From positions 3,569,501 through 3,633,500 of the forward strand of contig NZ_CP137624.1 of assembly GCF_033880585.1 (NCBI RefSeq): a DNA stretch of 64,000 bases, in the 5' to 3' direction. A program made the translations under genes and the position numbers. The notes beneath the pieces were generated by a model. That model did not search any database. It was not told the DNA's origin and worked only from the letters and a program-made list of their open reading frames with translations. Below are positions 3,392 through 64,000 of this stretch, one piece after another; the stretch's first letter is position 1, and every line of letters starts with the position of its first letter. Origin of the DNA: Lysinibacillus louembei. GTDB taxonomy: Bacteria > Bacillota > Bacilli > Bacillales_A > Planococcaceae.

Positions 3392-4366
3392 ATGTCAAAA
3401 AAAACAATTTTATTAATTCATACAGGTGGTACAATTTCGATGAAAATGAGCGCTGAAACAGGGGCGGTTGTGCAAAATGAGCAAAACCCACTAACAGCAG
3501 AAAAGCATATGCTATCAACATATGCCAATATCATTGAGGTAGAAGCGTTCAATTTACCATCGCCACATATTACACCAAATGAAATGCTGCGCTTACGCAA
3601 TTGTATTGTAGAGCATGTTGATAAATACGCAATTGATGGCGTTGTTATTACACATGGTACAGATACATTGGAAGAAACAGCATACTTTTTAGATTTAACA
3701 ACACGCTATAACTTCCCTATTGTGTTAACAGGGGCAATGCGTTCATCTAATGAGCTTGGAGCAGATGGTGTTTATAATTTAGTTGAGGCTGTACGTGTCG
3801 CTTGCTCACAAGAAGCACGTGGAAAAGGGGTACTTGTTGTTATGAATGATGAAATACATCATGCTTTCAACATTACGAAAACATCGACATCTAGTGTTAA
3901 TACATTCCAAAGCCCACAATATGGGCCTATTGGCTTGATTACAAAGAAAACTGTCCATATCCACCATATGCCTGTCCAACGCCAATTTGTCGAAGTAGAA
4001 AAAATCGAAAAGCGTGTCGCTTTATTAAAAGCCTATGCAGGAATGGAAGCCGATTTAATCGATGCGGTGGCAACATTGCAATATGATGGGCTTGTCTTAG
4101 AAGGCTTTGGACAAGGCAACGTCACACCTGCTGTCGCACAGCGTTTAAAAGCACTTGTCGCAAATGGTATGCCCGTCATCCTTGTTTCGCGCTGCTTTAA
4201 CGGCATTGCAGAAGGCGTTTACGGCTATGAAGGCGGTGGCAAGCAGCTAGAAGATGCTGGCGTCATTTTCGCCACAGGCATTAACGGACAAAAGGCACGC
4301 TTAAAGCTATTAATTGGCTTAAATCAAGTGCATCATCCTGTTGAGCTGAGAGCGTTTTTCTCATAA
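3392..4366 (+). CDS. ansA: Type I L-asparaginase
   Basis: Hydrolyses L-asparagine to aspartate and ammonia. The 324-residue protein has both family active-site signatures: HTGGTIS at residues 10-16, with the nucleophilic threonine, and THGTDTLEET at 87-96. Length and lack of a signal peptide fit the cytoplasmic AnsA type. The start follows AAAAGGGG. The gene is monocistronic, oriented opposite to its neighbours, and ends at a strong hairpin terminator. In B. subtilis ansA lies with ansB elsewhere near this region; no aspartase gene follows here. Confidence 0.93.
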   Translation: MSKKTILLIHTGGTISMKMSAETGAVVQNEQNPLTAEKHMLSTYANIIEVEAFNLPSPHITPNEMLRLRNCIVEHVDKYAIDGVVITHGTDTLEETAYFLDLTTRYNFPIVLTGAMRSSNELGADGVYNLVEAVRVACSQEARGKGVLVVMNDEIHHAFNITKTSTSSVNTFQSPQYGPIGLITKKTVHIHHMPVQRQFVEVEKIEKRVALLKAYAGMEADLIDAVATLQYDGLVLEGFGQGNVTPAVAQRLKALVANGMPVILVSRCFNGIAEGVYGYEGGGKQLEDAGVIFATGINGQKARLKLLIGLNQVHHPVELRAFFS

Positions 4367-4370
4367 ATTT

Positions 4371-4410
4371 AAACCAGTTAGCTGTCATGATTTTTACAGC
4401 TAACTGGTTT
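4371..4410 (+). terminator. Terminator of ansA
   Basis: Perfect 15-bp stem AAACCAGTTAGCTGT / ACAGCTAACTGGTTT with a 10-nt loop, starting 5 bp after the ansA stop. Confidence 0.85.
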
Positions 4411-4414
4411 ACAG

Positions 4415-4477
4415 TTCTATCAGCAAGTTTTAACATTTTATCGGTAACTTTGGCGTTTCTATCAGAAACTTCAACAT
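4415..4477 (+). repeat. Short tandem array, three 21-bp units
   Basis: Units begin at 4415, 4436 and 4457, exactly 21 bp apart, around the words TCTATCAGCAAGTTT, TTTATCGGTAACTTT and TCTATCAGAAACTTC. The array lies in the spacer between the convergent genes ansA and ypdA, between their terminators. It has no coding sense. See the cross-locus finding. Confidence 0.7.
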
Positions 4478-4502
4478 ATTCGAAAGAGACCATTCACAAT
4501 TA

Positions 4503-4557
4503 AATATGCTCCCAATAAGATAGATGAAAATTCATCAAATCAAATTGGGAGCATATT
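4503..4557 (-). terminator. Terminator of ypdA
   Basis: Inverted repeat AATATGCTCCCAAT / ATTGGGAGCATATT at 4503-4516 and 4544-4557, with a smaller GATGAA/TTCATC stem inside. It lies directly downstream of ypdA on the minus strand. Confidence 0.7.
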
Positions 4558-4561
4558 AAGA

Positions 4562-5542
4562 TTAAGGGCGGCGTGGTACTTTAAATTTCCCCTGAATCGC
4601 CTGCGCAATCATACCACCATGAAATCGTCCATTTTCAATAAAAATTTCATTGGCATTATTGCCTGCTGCAATGACACCTGCAATAAATAAATTCGGAACA
4701 TTGGTTTCCATCGTTTCTTCGTTAAAAAATGGACGACCCGTTGTTTCATCAATATTTACGCCCATAGCACGAATAAAGTCGTGATCAGGGTGATAGCCTG
4801 TCATCGCAAATACGAAATCGTTCGCAATATGTAGCTGTTGTCCTGCTTTGCGAATGACCACTTTGTCTTCAAAAATAGCTTCTACTTCACTTTCAAAATG
4901 CATCGTAATTTCACCAGAGCGGACTAACCCTTCAAACTCAGGCAGTACCCATGGCTTAATGCTTGGTGAATAGTCGCTACCACGATAGACGACTGTGACA
5001 TATGCACCGGCTTTATTTAATTCCAATGCTGCATCAATAGCTGAGTTTTTGCCACCAATCACTAAGACGTTCGTATCGAAAAATGGGTGACCTTCTTTAA
5101 AATAATGATACACCTTTGGTAGCTGCTCGCCTTCAATGCCCATATAATTCGGATGATCATAATAGCCTGTGGCAATGATAACATATGGTGTTTCATACTG
5201 TTCTTTGCTCGTTGTTACAGTGAATATAGCGCCGTTTTTTTCGACTTTTTCAACCTTTTCAAAACGATGAATGTCGATTTTTTTTGCACGTACAACTTCG
5301 CGATAATAGACTAAGGCTTGATTGCGACGAGGCTTGCGCTCCTCTACAATAAATGGCACATCGCTAATTGCTAGCTTTTCACTCGTACTAAAAAATGTTT
5401 GATGTGTCGGGTAATTGTAAATTGAATTGACGATATTTCCTTTTTCAATGACAACAGGCTGCAATCCAATCGCCTGCAATTCAATTGCGGCCGCTAAGCC
5501 ACAAGGTCCTCCTCCAACAATTAAAGCATCAACTTTTTGCAT
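4562..5542 (-). CDS. ypdA: Bacillithiol disulfide reductase YpdA
   Basis: FAD/NADPH-dependent reductase of the thioredoxin-reductase fold that recycles oxidised bacillithiol. From the chosen start, the FAD-binding motif IVGGGPCGLAAA carries the conserved family cysteine at position 14. A second Rossmann motif VIGGKNSAIDAA (about 165) binds NADPH, and the C-terminal GVIAAGNNANE segment fits the flavin site. The ATG at 5542 has the ribosome site GAGGAG; the frame extends upstream to 5584 without a usable site. It starts 22 bp after the phosphoesterase gene and is probably co-transcribed with it. Confidence 0.9.
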   Translation of the reverse strand: MQKVDALIVGGGPCGLAAAIELQAIGLQPVVIEKGNIVNSIYNYPTHQTFFSTSEKLAISDVPFIVEERKPRRNQALVYYREVVRAKKIDIHRFEKVEKVEKNGAIFTVTTSKEQYETPYVIIATGYYDHPNYMGIEGEQLPKVYHYFKEGHPFFDTNVLVIGGKNSAIDAALELNKAGAYVTVVYRGSDYSPSIKPWVLPEFEGLVRSGEITMHFESEVEAIFEDKVVIRKAGQQLHIANDFVFAMTGYHPDHDFIRAMGVNIDETTGRPFFNEETMETNVPNLFIAGVIAAGNNANEIFIENGRFHGGMIAQAIQGKFKVPRRP

Positions 5543-24519: not shown

Positions 24520-25353
24520 TTAGCAAGTAGAGGCAACAAATTCCTCAAACCTTTCTTCCTCCTCGAAAAAAGGGTAATGATTGCTGTAGTTAAATGTTGT
24601 TAATTGCGCAGTTGGCAGTAGCTCAGCCATTTCCATTGAAAAACGATATGGACATTGTGCATCATGTAATCCAGCTGAAATAAAGGCAGGAATTTGCACA
24701 GATTTCAATTGCTCTCGCACATCAAATTTTTGACAATCTACTTTCCGAAAATAATCAAGGCGTGCTCCGACAGTTTTCCCGCTATTCGGTCGAGCATATG
24801 TTTTATGTAAGTTTTCTTTATTGTAAAATGACATTAATGCCCATTCCTGTGATAATCGCTGTCTTTCCTCCACAGGCAAATCAGGCTCATTAAACAAATT
24901 CATAATTTCACGAATGCGATTAAAATTTGGGTTTTGATGACAATAAATGCTCTCTACATCTGCTGCATATTCAATGCTTGCAGCTGACCCTGTCGCGATA
25001 ATTTTTGTCAAAGAGTCTTGTGCTAATACTGCATATTTAAGCGCTAACATACCACCTGTCGAATGCCCTGCCATCGCCCAACGATGTAGTCCTAATGCTT
25101 GACGTATCGCCTCTAAATCTTGCACTGTCGTATTCATTGAAAAATCATCTTGCTCTGTTGCTTGAACAGAATTACCAACGCCACGAACATTGATTAAATA
25201 TACTTTATAATGATTAGTAAATGGATTTGCAAACGCATTGCCACGCTCATTATATTCACTATACAAATGTGTAATGACTAATGGCTCCCCCTCGCCTTTT
25301 TCAAACAGTTCAAATGTTCCTCTTATCGTATCGACCATTCTTTTTTTCCACAT
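24520..25353 (-). CDS. Alpha/beta hydrolase
   Basis: The 277-residue hydrolase-fold protein has the nucleophile elbow AMAGHSTGG (Ser in GHS, about residue 97), an oxyanion region near VRGVGNS, an acidic residue in SAGLHDAQCPYR and a late histidine in YSNHYPFFEEE. The start at 25353 (MWKKRMV) has AAGGGGGA; the frame opens at 25377. It resembles proline iminopeptidase-type or esterase members; no specific substrate is evident. Transcribed alone, upstream of the deacetylase gene. Confidence 0.8.
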   Translation of the reverse strand: MWKKRMVDTIRGTFELFEKGEGEPLVITHLYSEYNERGNAFANPFTNHYKVYLINVRGVGNSVQATEQDDFSMNTTVQDLEAIRQALGLHRWAMAGHSTGGMLALKYAVLAQDSLTKIIATGSAASIEYAADVESIYCHQNPNFNRIREIMNLFNEPDLPVEERQRLSQEWALMSFYNKENLHKTYARPNSGKTVGARLDYFRKVDCQKFDVREQLKSVQIPAFISAGLHDAQCPYRFSMEMAELLPTAQLTTFNYSNHYPFFEEEERFEEFVASTC

Positions 25354-55693: not shown

Positions 55694-56039
55694 GAACAAT
55701 CCCCCTTATATGTGAAATAGCTGTCGGTTCATCTGCCTGCATCATATAAGATGCAAGCCCTGAAAATTGAAATATTTTCTGCATTGTCGCTGAAGGATTC
55801 AAAATGAGTATTTGACCACCTACGATGCTGAGCTCGCGCATCCTCCCTAAAATTAAGCCAATACCTGAGCTATCCATAAATTGTAAGCCCGCTAAATTCC
55901 AAATTAATGTCGTCACCTGTCCCTGCATAATGGTCTTCGAAATTTGCGCACGAATTTTTTCAGTCTCATGATGCCCAAGCTCCCCATACAATCGAATAAT
56001 CGCAATTTGCTCTGGGTACATCGAAATTTCATAATTCAT
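55686..56039 (-). CDS. spoIIAA: Anti-sigma-F factor antagonist SpoIIAA
   Basis: The 117-residue STAS-domain protein has the phosphorylation site DSSGIGLI (Ser57-Ser58; the second corresponds to the serine phosphorylated in B. subtilis). When unphosphorylated it takes SpoIIAB away from sigma-F. Ribosome site AGGAGGCGAAGC. First gene of spoIIAA-spoIIAB-sigF-spoVAF behind a sigma-H-type promoter. dacF, which precedes it in B. subtilis, is missing. Confidence 0.96.
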   Translation of the reverse strand: MNYEISMYPEQIAIIRLYGELGHHETEKIRAQISKTIMQGQVTTLIWNLAGLQFMDSSGIGLILGRMRELSIVGGQILILNPSATMQKIFQFSGLASYMMQADEPTAISHIRGIVHG

Positions 56040-56066
56040 AATGCTTCGCCTCCTCGTCTAACGCTA

Positions 56067-56091
56067 ATTCCACGACGAATAAGCTTTTCCT
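56067..56091 (-). promoter_or_regulatory. Sigma-H-type promoter of the spoIIA operon
   Basis: On the minus strand AGGAAAA, 11 bp, GTGGAAT: matches the sigma-H pattern (AGGAWWW and RNNGAAT). The B. subtilis spoIIA operon is transcribed by sigma-H. The start codon is about 28 bp downstream. Confidence 0.75.
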
Positions 56092-56102
56092 TCACACCTG
56101 AC

Positions 56103-56150
56103 AAAACTAGTGACACTTCGCTAAAACTAGTGCCTATACGCCAAAGTATG
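56103..56150 (+). repeat. Short tandem array, 20-bp units
   Basis: AAAACTAGTG at 56103 and 56123, exactly 20 bp apart, with a degenerate third unit near 56143. It abuts the sigma-H promoter of spoIIA on its upstream side. ACTAGT is itself palindromic. Confidence 0.5.
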
Positions 56151-56188
56151 GGAAAATGCGTAGGATTTTAAACATCAATTGCTGGTTA

Positions 56189-56285
56189 TTCTACATTTTT
56201 GAAAGTTTTTTCTACGTTTTCGGGATTTTATTCTACGTTTTTTGAGAATTATTCTACGTTTGCGAGGATTTATTCTACGTTCACA
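56189..56285 (+). repeat. Short tandem array, five 21-bp units
   Basis: TTCTAC starts at 56189, 56210, 56231, 56252 and 56273, exactly 21 bp apart, within a loose word TTATTCTACGTTT. It lies between spoIIAA and the 3D-domain gene, at the junction of host and prophage-like DNA. Confidence 0.88.
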
Positions 56286-56293
56286 CTAAAAAA

Positions 56294-56331
56294 CACCTAT
56301 AAAACCGAAGGAAATTCCGATTTTATAGGTG
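56294..56331 (-). terminator. Terminator of the 3D-domain gene
   Basis: CACCTATAAAA / TTTTATAGGTG stem with an inner CCGAAG/TTCCGA-like pairing; on the minus strand a T6 run follows. It lies 8 bp beyond the stop. Confidence 0.8.
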
Positions 56332-56338
56332 CCTTGAA

Positions 56339-56959
56339 TTATTCATATTTGCCAATCATCCTTAATTTCACATCATGCCTACCTATCCGATAAGATTCTG
56401 CCTCTGAGGAAACTAAAATATCTAATTTATACCCTTTTATTGCCCCGCCGGTGTCTAAAACGATAGCTTGAAATGTTTCATTAGGCGTTTGAATTTCTAC
56501 AATTGTCCATAAAGGAACGATATTTGTATCAGCTGCAATAATTCGATATTCATCATAATAAACGGATTTTCTCACATCGACCCCAGCTGCTGAAACACCG
56601 CTACAGCCATCACAATCTGGACCGTAATAGCTAGCATTAAATGTCATCCATTTACTTTTTTGTTGCTCTTGTTTTAACCTTTCTGCTTCTTTACTTGCTA
56701 TCTCTTGTAACTTTCTTCTTTTTGTATGCTCAATTGCACTAATTTTAGCTAGTTCATATTCTTCCCTTTTACTTTGTTCCATCATTCTTTGCCTATGTAT
56801 TTCTTTCACTTGATTTTTAACATTTATGTATTGTTCATGCTTATTGATTATTTGCAGAGGAGGAGATACTTGCGTTACATGGGTCGCTTTTAAATTGATG
56901 ATAAACCATCCCCACCATACTAAAGAAACTACAATTAGCAATATTATTTTTTTATTCAT
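56339..56959 (-). CDS. 3D-domain protein (YorM-like, lytic transglycosylase fold)
   Basis: The 206-residue protein has a signal anchor (4-21), a charged coiled-coil region (about 40-100) and a C-terminal 3D domain (about 105-206) with the acidic motif VLDTGGAIKGYKLDILV, resembling the MltA catalytic barrel. SPbeta carries a 3D-domain protein (YorM), so this gene may belong to the adjacent prophage-like region, though host YuiC/YocH-type proteins share the domain. Its ribosome site is poor. Confidence 0.7.
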   Translation of the reverse strand: MNKKIILLIVVSLVWWGWFIINLKATHVTQVSPPLQIINKHEQYINVKNQVKEIHRQRMMEQSKREEYELAKISAIEHTKRRKLQEIASKEAERLKQEQQKSKWMTFNASYYGPDCDGCSGVSAAGVDVRKSVYYDEYRIIAADTNIVPLWTIVEIQTPNETFQAIVLDTGGAIKGYKLDILVSSEAESYRIGRHDVKLRMIGKYE

Positions 56960-57263: not shown

Positions 57264-57430
57264 AATTAGAACCTCTCAGGTTTCATTAGAAATAAAAAAT
57301 ATATTTAATTAATTTTTAAACAACAAACATTTATTTACTCACCTATTTTATGATGAAGAGGGGGCAACATCACAAAATAAATCAATCAATAAATATATTT
57401 AGCTGAAAACAGCATAGTTCCCAGCTAATA

Positions 57431-58402
57431 TTATATTTTATTTACAAGCTTCTCCTCAATTTCGAAGCTTCCGTAGTGTTCTTTCATAAATTCAATGTTT
57501 AACTCATCTAAAATTTTCCCTAGATAGTAGCCATGTATATTTTTATGCTTTCCATGGCGATCAGCTACTTGCTTTAAAATATCCGCAGTAAGCAGCATCT
57601 TCTTAGACTGCTGCATTTCTATGTATGCATAGTAACTAAAGCTGCTTCTCACAACTGTAGCAAGATTAAATGTTTCGTCCCCTAAATATGCCTTTAAACA
57701 ATTCCATATCCTATTTCGAATTGCAGGAGGGATGACTAGCATATCCTCAGAGTTCTTTCTTTTGAATGGCTTAAAAATATATTCACTATCAACAAATTCT
57801 GAATGTAAATTTTTATCTATTAACACTCGATTATATTTAATCAATCCCTGAAACAGCTCTTCGCTAATAGACAGTAGCCCTCTATTTAATTGAACATAGT
57901 ATTTGTCATTACTTTTTGATAAATTATCCACTGTCAATGTTTGAATTTCCTCAAAATTAACGGAGCCAATTCCTTCAAAAATACAAAGACCTATCAAATA
58001 ATATAAATTATTTTCTTGTTGTAGCCCTGCTAACAAATCTTCTTTTTGATAAATCGTGTTAAAGTTTTTATAAATATATTTGTCAATTGATTTCCGAGAA
58101 GTAGAAAATAGTCGATTTGTCTGATTTGTTACTAAACCATTCAATTCAGCCCATTTAATATATTGATTTAACAGCACGATATCTCTTCTTACTGAATTGC
58201 TGGACCTATAGCCATTTCCTAATAAAAATTTATCCAATTCGCTATAGGTCATATCATATAAATCAATTCCCTTTTTTTCTTCAATAGGTTTAGCATTTCT
58301 AAATATACCCATCACTTGATGTCTTTGAATACTATCTTCTGGGAACCCTTCAATAAAATATTTTTTTACATCAGCATTAAATAAATTTGTTACCGCTGTC
58401 AA
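57431..58402 (-). CDS. MrpR/YopR-like phage repressor with degenerate tyrosine-recombinase fold
   Basis: The 323-residue protein fits SPbeta YopR (MrpR, 325 residues) in length, gene order and fold type. Residues about 1-110 look like the core-binding domain of a tyrosine recombinase, about 120-310 like the catalytic domain. The Arg I position is lost (IFEGIGSVNFEEIQTL instead of GLR-x-SE). Box II keeps only one Arg (R252 in TVVRSSFSYYAY), and a possible Tyr remains in HGYYLGK (292-293). So it probably binds DNA without recombining it, as the SPbeta master repressor does. Start is TTG at 58402 after GGAGGGG. Confidence 0.7.
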   Translation of the reverse strand: MTAVTNLFNADVKKYFIEGFPEDSIQRHQVMGIFRNAKPIEEKKGIDLYDMTYSELDKFLLGNGYRSSNSVRRDIVLLNQYIKWAELNGLVTNQTNRLFSTSRKSIDKYIYKNFNTIYQKEDLLAGLQQENNLYYLIGLCIFEGIGSVNFEEIQTLTVDNLSKSNDKYYVQLNRGLLSISEELFQGLIKYNRVLIDKNLHSEFVDSEYIFKPFKRKNSEDMLVIPPAIRNRIWNCLKAYLGDETFNLATVVRSSFSYYAYIEMQQSKKMLLTADILKQVADRHGKHKNIHGYYLGKILDELNIEFMKEHYGSFEIEEKLVNKI

Positions 58403-58420: not shown

Positions 58421-59752
58421 TTATGTTTTCAATAAATCGCTTTCAGCTAGCATTTTATTCATTAGCCCAATTCCTTGATTTTCTTTTTCACCTCTAATTT
58501 GATTATCGCTCATTTGCTTTGTTCCAAATGTCTCCAACACAAAGTGTTTATTGAAATAATTTATATTGACTATTTTATTAAGTAAATGGAAGGAGATTTC
58601 ATGTTCCAGCATCGTTTTAAAAATATAGACATGCCAATAAAAAAATTTGTTTTTAAACAATAAAGAATTGCCGTCATTTAAATATTCGTCTTCATAATAC
58701 TCAAATAAATAGGTTAAATACTCGTTAAACTCCTCTGTCAGTTTGCCTGTTTTCGTCTGGTTATGCTTTTCAAACAAAGTATAAAAGGCATCTGACAAGA
58801 CGATATATGCTACTAGCTCGCCCATTTTCCTGTTTGGAACCGATACATTAGAAATTTTATTTCTTAATCGCCCCTCGACTTTCAAATTATTGACGATTCG
58901 ATCATTTATTCTTTCATGGCTTAATACTTGCAAACGAGATTTATCAATTGGCGTCATTTTAGATAATTCATATTGATACCTTGTCGCTTCCTTTGTCGTA
59001 TAATTTGAGATGCGAATTGGCATATAACCACTAATATGAGGATTTTCAATCCAAGCTCTATGTATCCCTGCTGTACGATGCATACCATCAATAATTTGCC
59101 CTATAAACTTGTCAGCAAAGCTTAATTCAAACGTTTTCTCATTATAATAAAGCTCCACCCCATCCTCTGAGGAGTCCTTAACTAAGTTATAAGCTAATTC
59201 ATTTTCAACTAAAACTCCCTGCAATACTTGCTCCTTTATTTCTCGAATGCTTGTCTCATTGAGCTTTGGAATAGAAAAAACAGCGTTATTGTAGGTCTTT
59301 CGTTTCCCCTCTCTCTGTATTTGTTCATCCCAAGTAAATAGCCCTTTATCATACATTTTCGCTATATCCTGTCTTGATACACCAACAATAAAAACATTGT
59401 CATTTAACTTAATCGCTGGTTTAAAGGACAGTGAAACGCTCGTATCGTTCTCTTCTTTTTTATATACGCGCATTCTTTCTATCTCTGGTGGGTTAAAATA
59501 GTGAGCAAGCCAGTCTTTTTCTTTCCCTAATGCTAGGGCAATTGCTTCACCGATTATACCTAATTCGATCATATCAATATTTTTTAATGTTGCTTCTGTA
59601 TTTAAAATTTGCAGCACATCACTTCGAGGAATATCATACTGCTTCTCTAATTGGCTCACTACTTCCTTTATTTTTTGAGGGCTTTTAATCAATCGTTCTA
59701 TATTTAGCTTTATTGTATGAACAATATCCTCCCTAGTTGCACCCAATTTCAT
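58421..59752 (-). CDS. YopQ-like protein with DGQHR-type motif
   Basis: The 443-residue protein carries GQIIDGMHRTAG (D222-R226), a variant of the IDGQHR motif of DndB/DGQHR-domain and ParB-like nuclease-fold proteins. It has helical N- and C-terminal parts with no other recognised domain. SPbeta YopQ has similar size and also lies next to yopR. The start at 59752 has GGAGGAG; the frame opens at 59791. It precedes the MrpR-like gene by 18 bp, so they form one operon. Biochemical role unknown. Confidence 0.65.
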   Translation of the reverse strand: MKLGATREDIVHTIKLNIERLIKSPQKIKEVVSQLEKQYDIPRSDVLQILNTEATLKNIDMIELGIIGEAIALALGKEKDWLAHYFNPPEIERMRVYKKEENDTSVSLSFKPAIKLNDNVFIVGVSRQDIAKMYDKGLFTWDEQIQREGKRKTYNNAVFSIPKLNETSIREIKEQVLQGVLVENELAYNLVKDSSEDGVELYYNEKTFELSFADKFIGQIIDGMHRTAGIHRAWIENPHISGYMPIRISNYTTKEATRYQYELSKMTPIDKSRLQVLSHERINDRIVNNLKVEGRLRNKISNVSVPNRKMGELVAYIVLSDAFYTLFEKHNQTKTGKLTEEFNEYLTYLFEYYEDEYLNDGNSLLFKNKFFYWHVYIFKTMLEHEISFHLLNKIVNINYFNKHFVLETFGTKQMSDNQIRGEKENQGIGLMNKMLAESDLLKT

Positions 59753-59823
59753 GTAAAGCTCCTCCATTCTATATTTTATATATTGTATCATACCACACCA
59801 ACAAAAATATAGTTAATTAATTT

Positions 59824-60068: not shown

Positions 60069-60683
60069 TCATAAATCCTGTGTATAACGCACCGCTTTAC
60101 CAATAATATGCGCTGGATTTTCCTCTGTGATAATATAAGGCTCATGCTCTGGGTTGTCAGGCATCAACAAGATTGTATCGCCTTGTTTTTTAACACGCTT
60201 TAGTGTCATTTCTGTATCTCCATTCACTAAAACAGCAGCAATTTCTCCATATTCTACCTCTGGTTGCTCTCGTATTAATACGTAAGAACCATTCGGAACA
60301 GTTGGCTCCATGCTGTTACCCTTCGCCTTTAAATAAAATAAATTGCCTTTAGGTAATGTATCTGCTGGCTCATAACGATATCCATCATGGTTTTCATCCG
60401 CTAAAATCGGGTCGCCACAAGCAATCGTTCCCAAAATCGGTATTTTCACAAAATTGGGCTGTACAGGGATAACATTTAATGGTCCAGCCTCTGCATCAAA
60501 AAAGTAAGAAACAGGTACCTCAAAAATATCTGCCATTAGAGCAATTTTATCAAGCATCGGTTTGTTTGCATCTCTCTCCCAAGCAGATACAGCAGTTGAA
60601 ACGATATCAAGCTTTTTTGCTAAATCACTTTGCGTAAGACCTTTCGTTTTCCTCAACATTTTTATTTTTTGACCAACGCTCAC
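60069..60683 (-). CDS. LexA/CI-type self-cleaving repressor (HTH-XRE plus S24 peptidase)
   Basis: The 204-residue protein has an N-terminal XRE helix-turn-helix (5-60; GLTQSDLAKKLDIVSTAVSAWE) and a C-terminal S24 domain. The cleavage site is IACGDP (Cys89-Gly90), the nucleophile S124 in KGNSMEPTVPNGS and the general base K162 in TLKRVKK, all intact. It should repress lytic genes and cut itself when RecA is activated. Start is GTG at 60683 after GGAGGTGA. It faces a divergent operon across a region with TACAG operators. Confidence 0.92.
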   Translation of the reverse strand: MSVGQKIKMLRKTKGLTQSDLAKKLDIVSTAVSAWERDANKPMLDKIALMADIFEVPVSYFFDAEAGPLNVIPVQPNFVKIPILGTIACGDPILADENHDGYRYEPADTLPKGNLFYLKAKGNSMEPTVPNGSYVLIREQPEVEYGEIAAVLVNGDTEMTLKRVKKQGDTILLMPDNPEHEPYIITEENPAHIIGKAVRYTQDL

Positions 60684-60834: not shown

Positions 60835-60848
60835 CAAACATTTGTTCG
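60835..60848. promoter_or_regulatory. LexA (SOS) box in the rightward promoter
   Basis: CAAACATTTGTTCG; its complement CGAACAAATGTTTG matches the Bacillus consensus CGAACRNRYGTTYG at all 14 positions. It overlaps the probable -35 TTGTTC (60842-60847), 16 bp before a -10-like TATAGC (60864-60869). Confidence 0.8.
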
Positions 60849-60898: not shown

Positions 60899-61216
60899 AT
60901 GAGCAATATTAAACTTATTCATTCTATCATTTACCAAATCCCAAACTATCAACTTGACATGATTTACGAGGATGCAGAGTACGATTTACATCCACATTTG
61001 GATGATAGCAGTGTTGAAATTATTAAGGATAAAATCCATATTACCTTTGAACGAGCGATGGATAGCAATAACGAACAGCAGGCTATAGATGCAGCGGTTG
61101 ATTATATCCATCAGCACTATAAAAATAGAACAGATTGGACTGTTCTAAATGTCGTAAACGATGAAATTGAATGGATAGCTATTACATTGATTGATTACAC
61201 GATTGAATTATTTTAA
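60899..61216 (+). CDS. Hypothetical protein, first gene of the rightward operon
   Basis: The 105-residue acidic protein (LDDSSVEIIKDKIHITFERA in the middle) shows mixed alpha/beta content with no recognised domain. Ribosome site AAAAAGGAGC. It is the first gene after the SOS/operator region, in line with phage early genes such as anti-repressors or takeover proteins; that role is only inferred from place. Confidence 0.65.
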   Translation: MSNIKLIHSIIYQIPNYQLDMIYEDAEYDLHPHLDDSSVEIIKDKIHITFERAMDSNNEQQAIDAAVDYIHQHYKNRTDWTVLNVVNDEIEWIAITLIDYTIELF

Positions 61217-61238: not shown

Positions 61239-61493
61239 ATGAATCAAAGAAAACAGCTGTTAGGATTTGGTGAGGAAGTGCCAAGCTTTTATTTAGCAAG
61301 AAATCAAGATTGGTCTCGAGCGTCTAATTTATCAGAATTACGCTATTATCTAGAGGAAATGTATCAAATTGATCTGTTGAGTCCTAATGAAAAGGAAATT
61401 TATGAGCGCTACCAGCTCAGCGAGGAAATTACATATCGAGAATGGCTTTTTATTCAATCAAATATGCATACATATTATAAATTAAAATTTTAG
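61239..61493 (+). CDS. Hypothetical protein, second gene of the rightward operon
   Basis: The 84-residue protein is rich in Tyr, Glu and Leu (YYLEEMYQIDLLSPNEKEIY) and predicted helical; no domain recognised. Ribosome site GGAGGAG. It lies 22 bp after the previous gene and 34 bp before the RNA-polymerase-like gene. Confidence 0.62.
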   Translation: MNQRKQLLGFGEEVPSFYLARNQDWSRASNLSELRYYLEEMYQIDLLSPNEKEIYERYQLSEEITYREWLFIQSNMHTYYKLKF

Positions 61494-61527
61494 CATTCAT
61501 TCAATATATTTTTAGAGGGGGATTATG

Positions 61528-64000
61528 ATGACACTACAAAATCAAGTATATTTACACTCATTAGAAACAAAAGATTTCTATACAGACGAGGAAATGGCAA
61601 TAAATAATCAATATTTTAAAGCATTGCGCTTAAAAAATAAATTGAAAAACAGAATTCAAGAAATACAGACATTTATCCATTTTCAACATGACAAAATCGC
61701 ACTTAATTCTGATGAGCAATTACTAATAAACAGATATACGAATAAGTTAGAGCAATATCATGTAAGGCTGCTTTACGTCTCTTCCTACGTTAATCGATAT
61801 AAAGCAGCTCTAACAGCACTAATTGAGTCATATCCAGCCTCTAAAACTCGAATTTTACGAGAGGATGCTTTAAAAATTAACAACAAAATAGGCGTATTTG
61901 AATCTTCCCTTACAAGAATATGCCAATTTAAAAATAATGAAATTACAACCAAGCTGTTTGTCATTAGAATATTTCATTACCATATTTTAAAATCTATCAT
62001 CCACAATGGTTTTTATTATAAGGAAAGCAAATATAAATACTTTACATCCAGTGCAGGACAAATTCGAACAAAAAAAATCGTGGCAATTCAAGAGGAACTA
62101 TATAACACATATGAAAATGCGATAACATGTGGATTATCATTGAATCTAATTAATAGTAAAGGTGGAATCAATGCCAATAAATATCAGGCCTATTTAGCAT
62201 TAGCTAACTCAGCCTCCGCTAAATGGACAAGATTTAATATTGACCGAATTGTTGTAGTAGATGATTTCTCCACTGAGGTAAAGGCTATCGTTGATTATAT
62301 TGATAGCCAAACATTTGAAATTACAAGAAAACAAATGGATATTCCAATTGAACATATGGATGGCTGTGGCATTATGCTCCCTAGCGTCTCCAAAAAATCC
62401 TTTATGTTTAGAATGCCTTGGATGAAAGGTTTACTAACACCCTTCGACTTCAAAAAATTCATTGAAGAAAAAAAGTGCAGCCCTAAAATCACGGATATTT
62501 ATGGCAAGGAATACGATATTATCGCAGATAATATTAATATCATTTTGACAAAATCACAATTTAAAATGTGGAAGTTTTATGATTGTTGGGATGACTATAA
62601 AAATCAATTTAAAAAATATCATTGTGAGGCTGCCAAATTAAACATTGAGGATATTGGTACGAAAGCAAGCATGAATTATCAAATGCTGCAAACATTAGTG
62701 ACGATGACTGCTGAAGAGCTACAAAGCATTGCCGCTTCAACAGTTCACGACATTTCAATGCTAGGTAAAGACAAAAAAACGATGCTAAAAGTTTTAGGTG
62801 CCGTTAAGGAAAATACTAATATGAACCATTTTCAAAAATCGCTGCTGCTCTATCCCGAGCTGCTGAGTGACCCCCATTGTAGAGAGGTGATTAAAAATAA
62901 AAAACGCAAGCTTATTAAAGAGGCAAAGGCTGGTAAATTAAATATCAATGGCTATTATACTTTTATCATTCCTGATGTTTATGCTTTTTGTGAATGGCTA
63001 TTTTTAAAGGATGCGAATCCTAATGGCTTATTAAAATCAGATCAAGTATATTGCAATATTTTTAATAGTGGAGACCTAGATATTTTGCGTGCTCCTCACT
63101 TATATAAAGAGCATGCCATTCGCACTAACATAAAGGATACATCTATAGCGGAATGGTTTATAACAAAAGGCATTTATACAAGTGTGAAAGATGCTATTAG
63201 CAAAATTTTACAATTCGATAATGATGGCGATAAAAGCCTAGTTGTGCAAGATCCTACATTGATCGCTGTTGCTAAAAGAGAAATGCAGGACATTGTGCCT
63301 TTATACTATGAAATGCATAAAGCGGAAGATAAAATACTTGATAACAATACGATTTATCATGCATTAATAAGCGCTTATCAAGCGAATATCGGTATTATTA
63401 GTAATGACATCAGCAAAATTTGGAATTCCAAAAATCCAAATTTAGAAGCAATCAAATGGCTATGTATGTATAATAATTTTGTCATCGACTATGCAAAAAC
63501 TTTGTACTTACCGAAAAAGCCTGAAAATGTAGCAAATACGTTAAAGCTGTATGCAAAGGACAAGCTCCCCCACTTCTTTAAATATGCAAAGGATAAGGAG
63601 GACAATCAAGTATTGGCACTACTAGCAGAAAATACGAATAACCTTACAACCGTCAATAAATTGAATTTGCTTATTCCCAATAAGCCTATTCGCTTTCAAC
63701 ATACAGCTGGCATATTCGACTATAAAAATTTAATGAAGAACTCTTCTATTGAAGTAAACCAACAACTAATAGCAAAGTTCATCGAGATTAATAAAGAAAA
63801 GCATAAATATATGTCAAAAGATGAAATTGGTGACACAGGGTTTATTATCTATTTAAAGGAAGAATTATTAAAAATTGAATCAGATTTACATCATATAGCA
63901 GACCAGTTAGTAAAATATTTCTATGTAAAAAACTCAAGATTTAAAGAAACGATATGGAGCCTTGTTGGCGATATTATTTATCAAAACTTAGCCTATAATT
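61528..64000 (+). CDS. YonO-like single-polypeptide RNA polymerase (two-barrel fold), 3' end beyond window
   Basis: An uninterrupted frame of 824 codons runs off the right edge, so no stop is visible. The motif ILQFDNDGDKSLVV (D564, D566, D568) is the DxDGD metal-binding triad of double-psi-beta-barrel RNA polymerases (beta-prime subunits, QDE-1, YonO). It is preceded by FNSGDLDILRAPHLYKEHAI (512-531), which matches the conserved segment before that triad in YonO/QDE-1-type enzymes, and followed by SAYQANIGIISN (615-626). SPbeta YonO (about 905 residues) is a DNA-dependent RNA polymerase for late phage genes. Of the ATG pair at 61525 and 61528, the second has better spacing to AGAGGGGGA. Third gene of an operon behind an SOS box. 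Confidence 0.85.
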   Translation, partial: MTLQNQVYLHSLETKDFYTDEEMAINNQYFKALRLKNKLKNRIQEIQTFIHFQHDKIALNSDEQLLINRYTNKLEQYHVRLLYVSSYVNRYKAALTALIESYPASKTRILREDALKINNKIGVFESSLTRICQFKNNEITTKLFVIRIFHYHILKSIIHNGFYYKESKYKYFTSSAGQIRTKKIVAIQEELYNTYENAITCGLSLNLINSKGGINANKYQAYLALANSASAKWTRFNIDRIVVVDDFSTEVKAIVDYIDSQTFEITRKQMDIPIEHMDGCGIMLPSVSKKSFMFRMPWMKGLLTPFDFKKFIEEKKCSPKITDIYGKEYDIIADNINIILTKSQFKMWKFYDCWDDYKNQFKKYHCEAAKLNIEDIGTKASMNYQMLQTLVTMTAEELQSIAASTVHDISMLGKDKKTMLKVLGAVKENTNMNHFQKSLLLYPELLSDPHCREVIKNKKRKLIKEAKAGKLNINGYYTFIIPDVYAFCEWLFLKDANPNGLLKSDQVYCNIFNSGDLDILRAPHLYKEHAIRTNIKDTSIAEWFITKGIYTSVKDAISKILQFDNDGDKSLVVQDPTLIAVAKREMQDIVPLYYEMHKAEDKILDNNTIYHALISAYQANIGIISNDISKIWNSKNPNLEAIKWLCMYNNFVIDYAKTLYLPKKPENVANTLKLYAKDKLPHFFKYAKDKEDNQVLALLAENTNNLTTVNKLNLLIPNKPIRFQHTAGIFDYKNLMKNSSIEVNQQLIAKFIEINKEKHKYMSKDEIGDTGFIIYLKEELLKIESDLHHIADQLVKYFYVKNSRFKETIWSLVGDIIYQNLAYN

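Follow-up and report, generated by a model that had tools for sequence, protein, structure and literature searches.

YonO of phage SPbeta is related to the RNA polymerases of cells but consists of a single chain. In the work that characterized it, it is described as a DNA-dependent RNA polymerase required for late genes, in which exchanging the aspartate triad for asparagine left stable complexes and abolished RNA extension, and the text leaves the YonO promoter as an open question (Forrest et al., PMC5467207). A second group of described systems relevant here is the F-type tailocins. We take Listeria monocins and F-pyocins to belong to this group alongside rhizoviticin, and to our knowledge no F-type tailocin carries an RNA polymerase of its own. 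Among Bacillales, a PBSX-type phage-tail bacteriocin has been described in Brevibacillus laterosporus, which is contractile and XkdK-based and the main text of whose report uses the term 'RNA polymerase' 0 times (PMC9406221). In the literature searched, preprints apart, we found neither a tailocin with a single-subunit RNA polymerase nor an SPbeta-like one, and none of the matches listed brought tailocin and YonO together. Here we describe an intact YonO-family polymerase gene at the head of a conserved 38.5-kb tail-and-lysis locus without recognised head genes in Lysinibacillus louembei. The stretch analysed (the window, 64,000 nt, positions 3569501-3633500 of a single-contig genome of 3,960,254 bp) contains the left part of the locus, while the part to the right of the polymerase lies outside it and is given in window-equivalent coordinates (position in record L002 plus 58499). 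What is new is these surroundings, a tail-only locus headed by YonO, and not the polymerase family.

An original prediction, made from the letters of the window, had proposed a YonO-like single-chain RNA polymerase gene open at the window edge. Retranslation of frame 61528-63999 reproduced its 824 sense codons without a stop, its FDNDGD at residues 563-568 (numbered from 61528) and the preceding stretch GDLDILRAPHLYKEHA at residue 515, and extending the contig rightwards placed the stop at window-equivalent 64152, 152 nt beyond the edge. An alternative in-frame ATG stands one codon 5' of 61528; counted from this ATG at 61525, the gene (+ strand, 61525..64000 and on to 64152; L002:3026-5653) encodes 875 amino acids (aa), with the catalytic loop DNDGD and its metal-binding aspartate triad at residues 565-569 (63217..63231, +) and a C-terminal CxxC..CxxC segment (C832, C835, C848 and C851; window-equivalent 64018-64077, +) just outside the window. 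This segment is common to all six sequences of our first alignment, which includes SPBc2. Neither there nor in a second alignment, of 43 family members, does any sequence depart from D565, D567, G568 and D569.

Searching 50,697 phage records with the polymerase (tblastn) gave matches in 35, of which 23 covered at least 80% of the query. The top phage match was Psychrobacillus phage Perkons (51.9% identity), with 47.0% for SPbetaL1 and 46.5% across 97% of the polymerase length for YonO of SPBc2 (SPbeta). By sequence, the polymerase is an ortholog of SPbeta YonO, a further member of an already known family, and a predicted DNA-dependent two-barrel single-chain RNA polymerase. The assignment to YonO-like enzymes is thereby strengthened, as the protein falls in the SPbeta YonO clade itself; the accompanying suggestions that it is a divergent member and distant from typical phage proteins were mistaken, since most of the protein aligns with YonO of SPbeta-like phages at 46-52% identity. 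The remark that the gene is easy to miss proved apt: no Pfam model reached its cut-off (three weak matches, E 0.15-0.42), and the matching family, phrog_8308 (E 1.3e-251, residues 4-839), is annotated 'unknown function'. This family is present in 11 of 261 family genomes (source genome counted), with a protein match at E<=1e-10 in five. Tagatose aldolases, the sole matches of a sequence search against the PDB (best E 0.0038), were dismissed as chance.

The two-barrel fold on which the original prediction had staked its identification is what structure prediction returned. The AlphaFold model of residues 1-825 (pLDDT 92, pTM 0.86) best matches the two-barrel polymerases RDR2 and QDE-1, which account for all 21 Foldseek matches to the PDB at E<=0.001. 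In structural comparison with VIA-align, maize RDR2 scored Z 25.7 and 13 other RDR2 or QDE-1 entries Z 14.2-23.7, all but one of them at 18.6 or above, followed by the phage proteins P74 gp62 (Z 15.9) and P32 gp64 (Z 15.7), a crAss-like phage polymerase (Z 11.4) and P23-45 gp96 (Z 10.8); long-helix matches to residues 19-104 reach Z 11.2 and mean little. The predicted model thus has the double-psi beta-barrel polymerase fold of the YonO family, with the catalytic triad between helix 558-562 and strand 570-574. Its likeness to the eukaryotic enzymes is one of fold only, as these are 12-16% identical, have other domains and use an RNA template. SPbeta YonO shares the catalytic triad, has a similar CxxC..CxxC segment and occupies the same place before an HU-type gene (yonN) and late genes, but serves a complete 134-kb phage, whereas the present copy heads 38.5 kb without recognised head genes. 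By analogy, the present polymerase would carry out DNA-templated RNA synthesis and late-gene transcription as SPbeta YonO does.

Elsewhere in the family, phage BUCT082 encodes a diverged YonO homolog (L014:3260-6034) with a catalytic motif that aligns as DFDYD, Tyr replacing Gly. Many YonO genes of SPbeta-like phages (H4, H5, H10 and H22 included) align in two pieces with some 0.4-1.3 kb extra between them; a GIY-YIG nuclease is annotated under one such split match, and these genes probably contain mobile introns or inteins.

The genes that follow the polymerase include HU (window-equivalent 64317-64607), open reading frame (ORF) 247 (from 65083), a 334-aa protein (65859-66863; phrog_2729, 'virion structural protein') and a 1957-aa tape measure with an M23 domain (67515-73388). 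Beyond it are Dit, two more tail-type proteins and a Tal-like protein of 1273 aa, recognised by BLAST comparison only, and then a weakly PAAR-like protein, several fibre-type proteins with laminin-G, F5/8 and CBM96 domains, and small membrane proteins. A 124-aa membrane ORF is presumably a holin, and an M23 lysin (94183-94866) is followed by host genes (pdp, deoB and xerD-like, named by reading their sequences). PHROG and Pfam scans of 20 downstream genes named the tape measure, Dit, fibre-type domains and lysin, and among these 20 genes named no terminase, portal or major capsid. Of the components of an F-type tailocin, the locus has recognisable genes for the tube, the tape measure, the distal tail and the fibres, together with a lysis gene (the M23 lysin) and an SOS-type regulator (a Peptidase_S24 repressor with an SOS-like box); the tube role of the 334-aa protein rests on phrog_2729 and on similarity to YomU and Perkons ORF198. 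Among the ORFs of SPBc2 15000-64000, BLAST found relatives of YonO, YomU, YomO, YomI, YomH, YomG and YomF in the locus and none of yonB to yonH.

Perkons (MT325768) is the closest complete phage found, with 52% identity in the polymerase, 55% in Dit and 59% in the homolog of ORF183, the same tail-gene order, and MrpR- and YopQ-type genes. It differs in having terminase, portal, capsid and replication genes and a serine recombinase, for which we found no counterpart. Among 55 Perkons proteins compared, ORF213-ORF200 (14 genes including terminase, portal and major capsid) and ORF197-ORF192 (six genes, one a site-specific integrase) have no counterpart in the locus, and the serine recombinase ORF165, holin ORF169 and integrase ORF64 have no match there, whereas there are matches to ORF199, ORF198 and the tape measure and, of the 23 genes that follow the tape measure, to 14. 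SPbeta YonF and YonE (terminase and portal) found no match in the whole genomes G000 and G067 (the source genome and Metasolibacillus meyeri, respectively); as a positive control, SPbeta terminase and portal each matched one of five whole genomes, G050, whose YonO locus does have head genes. Of the marks of an SPbeta-like phage, the locus thus has the MrpR and YopQ regulators and shows neither a head and packaging module nor a large serine integrase; no replication genes were recognised in it either. In gene content it resembles F-type tailocins, of which rhizoviticin (PMC10811719) is an example: non-contractile tail genes with fibre and lysis genes, no head genes, a chromosomal site and an SOS-type regulator.

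In M. meyeri the gene order is kept as far as the contig reaches, into the fibre genes. The polymerase is 82% identical, and polymerase, regulator and tail frames are open in both species. One M. meyeri contig (C246) aligns to window position 57293 near its end and another (C182) begins with a repeated AT-rich element described below; judging from these contig ends, the M. meyeri locus would occupy the same spoIIAA-side site. Nei-Gojobori ratios of non-synonymous to synonymous substitution (dN/dS) against M. meyeri were 0.020-0.278 in 15 of 16 chosen gene pairs (the remaining pair gave no dS; the choice took in neither HU and the fibres nor the PAAR-like and second small ORFs), with 0.087 for the polymerase. 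The locus in the source genome is thus under purifying selection relative to M. meyeri.

A more distant relative occurs among viral contigs, which were scanned with the YonO alignment and a second polymerase; the best 80 of each gave 153 loci, and with one further locus (L009) a set of 154 in which several contigs are counted twice. Among 31 loci without a head match and with at least 5 kb downstream, an ORF of at least 900 aa follows YonO only in L009 and in L098/L156, which are one contig (G261). This whole contig of 35,411 bp encodes MrpR-like and YopQ-like proteins, YonO (45.7%), HU, ORF238, a tube-like protein, a 2007-aa tape measure, Tal pieces, Dit, fibres, a membrane protein and, at the contig end, an amidase-like protein, with tail proteins 23-45% identical to those of the present locus.

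We read the locus as an SPbeta-derived, tailocin-like element of F type with its own late RNA polymerase, whose particles and killing would follow from its genes, and give this a probability of roughly 0.63. In the resting state, the S24 repressor and an MrpR-like repressor would hold the polymerase gene off; DNA damage would inactivate the S24 repressor, as its domain and the SOS-like box suggest, and host RNA polymerase would then make YonO. Following the example of SPbeta, YonO would transcribe the downstream HU, tail and lysis genes from its own promoter, and the products would assemble into headless flexible tails that are released by the lysis proteins and act on other bacteria as an F-type tailocin. 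The polymerase may thus serve bacteria in making a phage-tail weapon and not a virus in its own growth, and its retention under selection in a tail-only locus hints at the domestication, by bacteria, of a transcription system reserved for tail particles.

Several observations weigh against this interpretation. The head-less layout is rare, terminase, portal or capsid relatives lying downstream of YonO in 112 of the 154 loci (26 have no head-gene match with at least 7 kb read, and 16 are shorter); of ten YonO contexts in other genomes of the family, two (G027 and G050) include head genes and the others gave few matches. Within the locus, a 217-aa protein matches phrog_20658, 'head decoration' (E 3.3e-55, category 'head and packaging'), phrog_2729 of the 334-aa protein has the same category, and there are weaker such matches on fibre genes and M23 domains. 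We read all of these as tail proteins because in Perkons they lie with the tail genes, the homolog of the 217-aa protein, ORF189, being flanked by two tail proteins, which is not proof. Several ORFs have matches of 'unknown function' only, and very diverged head genes could be missed. The PHROG of the MrpR-like protein, phrog_5830, bears the name integrase. The diverged contig G261, which has no match to the SPbeta portal or Perkons head genes, may be a fragment, in which case the missing portal match would carry no weight, and no S24 repressor gene was seen on it. Evolution of the tape measure is fast (dN/dS 0.28), the M. meyeri HU gene carries a frameshift, and the locus is dispensable, as indicated by the same-species genome G066, where the alignment breaks off at window 56936 and resumes at window-equivalent 94074, with 37 kb lost. 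A broken transposase (L071 reversed, 3954-5291) lies at this deletion, of which the lysin and a truncated 3D-domain gene remain.

The last of these points would suit a decaying SPbeta-like prophage that has lost its head and replication modules and keeps the polymerase as a jobless leftover: most of the locus has gone from G066 with an insertion-sequence scar, HU is broken in M. meyeri, and neither G065 nor G068 gave an alignment to the element at this site. Against decay stand frames open in two species (polymerase 82%) and dN/dS of 0.02-0.28 in 15 of 16 pairs, and the diverged contig G261 repeats the gene order without head-gene matches; that the same modules were removed and spared twice is unlikely under random decay, and we regard this explanation as unlikely. 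Less probable still, in our judgement very unlikely, is an element of the satellite or gene-transfer kind, with tails and late polymerase of its own and heads taken from an SPbeta-like helper phage. Such a helper is conceivable, since an SPbeta-like phage (Perkons) infects a related host, and inspection by eye shows genes resembling integrase, replication and terS genes in other small YonO elements (L121-L126), two of which come under the assembly number of a full-size SPbeta-like contig. The present locus, however, has no recognised serine integrase, replication or packaging genes, neither G000 nor G067 contains a match to SPbeta-type terminase or portal, and no flanking direct repeats of at least 11 bp were found between the stretches compared (window-equivalent 55901-56400 and 94801-95200). 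The satellites known to us steal heads or tails and none carries a whole tail, as this locus does.

Those small elements (L121, L123, L124, L125 and L126) have a YonO of about 990 aa (41%) and look like satellites with a YonO of their own. By eye, L124 and L125 encode integrase- or resolvase-like and replication-like genes, as well as tube-like and terS-like proteins; the assembly numbers of L121 and L124 recur on SPbeta-like contigs of full size (L094, L084).

The original prediction also supposed that the polymerase may have its own promoter specificity, and for the promoter a motif that follows many YonO genes, TAATcGTCtttAAGGGA, is a candidate. Expectation-maximization from random starts on the 350 nt that follow the YonO stop codon in 69 loci, selected from 152 by k-mer distance to avoid redundancy, gave the motif AGATAATCGTCTTTAAGGGAAA or AATCGTCTTTAAGGGA, with a summed score of 1040 against 695-721 for six dinucleotide-shuffled sets and 774 for the window 900-1250 nt downstream. 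A reverse-strand search returned the reverse complement of the same motif and hence is no control; control windows at the YonO coding end scored 1576, above the motif, from coding conservation and are no test of it. When each locus was scored with a model trained on the others, its highest-scoring site lay within 350 nt after YonO and on the YonO strand in 36 of 65 loci, where length alone would lead us to expect about 1 of 65. In the yonO-yonK stretch of SPBc2, the two best sites (model trained with SPBc2 included) are GATAATCGTCATAAGGGAGACA before yonN and GATAATAGTCATTTATGAGGGT at L011 12401-12422, and the YonO start published as 2225998 converts to about L011 12400, where the motif has its upstream end, some 17 nt before its GGG. 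That conversion was made by hand from Table 1 of PMC10516654 (strain SP1, CP058242) on the assumption that coordinates are common to SP1 and 168; two mutations used as reference points, those in mrpR and yoqA, are in agreement. Direct matching of the SPbeta start sequence to other phages did not work. Contig G261 has a strong copy (21.0 bits) and no terminase match, which speaks against a packaging site.

The copy in the present locus, TTGCGTAGTCTACAAGGGAAGA (L002:5740-5761, window-equivalent 64239-64260), is conserved in M. meyeri. It is weak: its 7.9 bits are not significant alone, 15.8 bits being reached elsewhere in 198 kb, and in leave-one-out tests the post-YonO site fell outside the 10, 10 and 14 best sites listed for SPBc2, Perkons and the source genome, respectively. 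The wider proposal, that a recurrent class of Bacillales F-type tailocins carries its own YonO and that TAATcGTCtttAAGGGA is the promoter candidate, is tentative, and we would place it somewhat short of even odds. Literature since the SPbeta YonO paper, preprints apart, gave no later answer on the promoter in what was retrieved, and with the motif to hand a question of long standing comes within reach of a test that takes a single purified protein and a short DNA.

Rfam scans of the SPBc2, Perkons and own stretches found only the SR6 antitoxin and the DUF3800-VIII RNA, both in SPBc2. The yonN-yonK gap of SPBc2 (L011:12022-13702) spans 1.7 kb without annotated genes, with the DUF3800-VIII RNA near its end, and shares short stretches with the YonO-HU gap of Perkons; it perhaps encodes a structured late RNA.

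A rival for the promoter role is an AT-rich 18-mer, ATTAATTAAATATATTTT. Exact copies stand at 57296..57313 (- strand, some 340 nt ahead of the 3D-domain gene) and, past the window edge, at window-equivalent 64284 (+, before HU) and 64892 (+, before the tail genes); a copy with one mismatch lies just upstream of the YopQ-like gene (59804..59821, -) and one with two mismatches directly before the ribosome-binding site of the polymerase gene (61495..61512, +). Allowing up to three mismatches, the window has four sites against 1.14 expected (2 of 100 shuffles reach four), and two further two-mismatch sites in 100 kb, at 25189 and 85547, lie elsewhere. An active polymerase might use this element, and not the GTCnnnAAGGGA motif, as its YonO promoter: correctly oriented, it stands ahead of the ribosome-binding sites for HU, for the tail genes and for the polymerase gene, M. 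meyeri has kept the two copies that lie between polymerase and tail genes, and under the promoter model it scores 10.4 bits (overlapping the ribosome-binding site) against 7.9 bits for the own GTC motif copy. The element also precedes the yopQ-like gene, however, and in Perkons the similar TAATTAA(G)T-like element TATAATTAAGTTA, with up to one mismatch, occurs at 24 sites, and 17 of these are on the strand of the early genes, whose transcription should fall to the host polymerase. As a similar element marks Perkons early promoters, it is not our first choice and we consider the idea doubtful. The early-strand sites in Perkons, together with the report that MrpR binds the repeated element SPBRE in SPbeta (PMC10516654), make an MrpR-type operator the better fit, and by analogy this is likely what the 18-mer is. 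The S24 repressor was set aside as its binder, its own gene being without a copy among the sites listed.

The regulators themselves occupy the left part of the locus. The MrpR-like protein (57431..58402, -; 323 aa) matches Pfam MrpR_N_CB above cut-off (E 1.8e-13), and the YopQ-like protein (58421..59791, -; 456 aa; phrog_5732) is 24% identical to SPbeta YopQ (E 2.8e-21). Next comes the repressor of LexA/CI type, with helix-turn-helix and Peptidase_S24 domains (60069..60683, -; 204 aa), and in the divergent promoter region beside it an SOS-box-like palindrome, CAAACATTTGTTCG (60835..60848, +), one mismatch away from what we take to be the Bacillus SOS consensus. Two small ORFs lead up to the polymerase gene, one of 105 aa (60899..61216, +), conserved in M. 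meyeri at 67%, and one of 84 aa (61239..61493, +), 57% identical there and 33% identical over 55 residues to Perkons ORF217. The probable left end of the element is a 206-aa 3D-domain protein (56339..56959, -), the gene truncated by the G066 deletion and not aligned in G065 and G068; BLAST gave no match between it and the Perkons 3D-domain protein ORF114. The host genes beyond it, again named by reading their sequences, include a spoIIAA-like gene, near which a stretch of about 100 bp (window 56186-56290) recurs dozens of times across five genomes of the genus and is a dispersed repeat.

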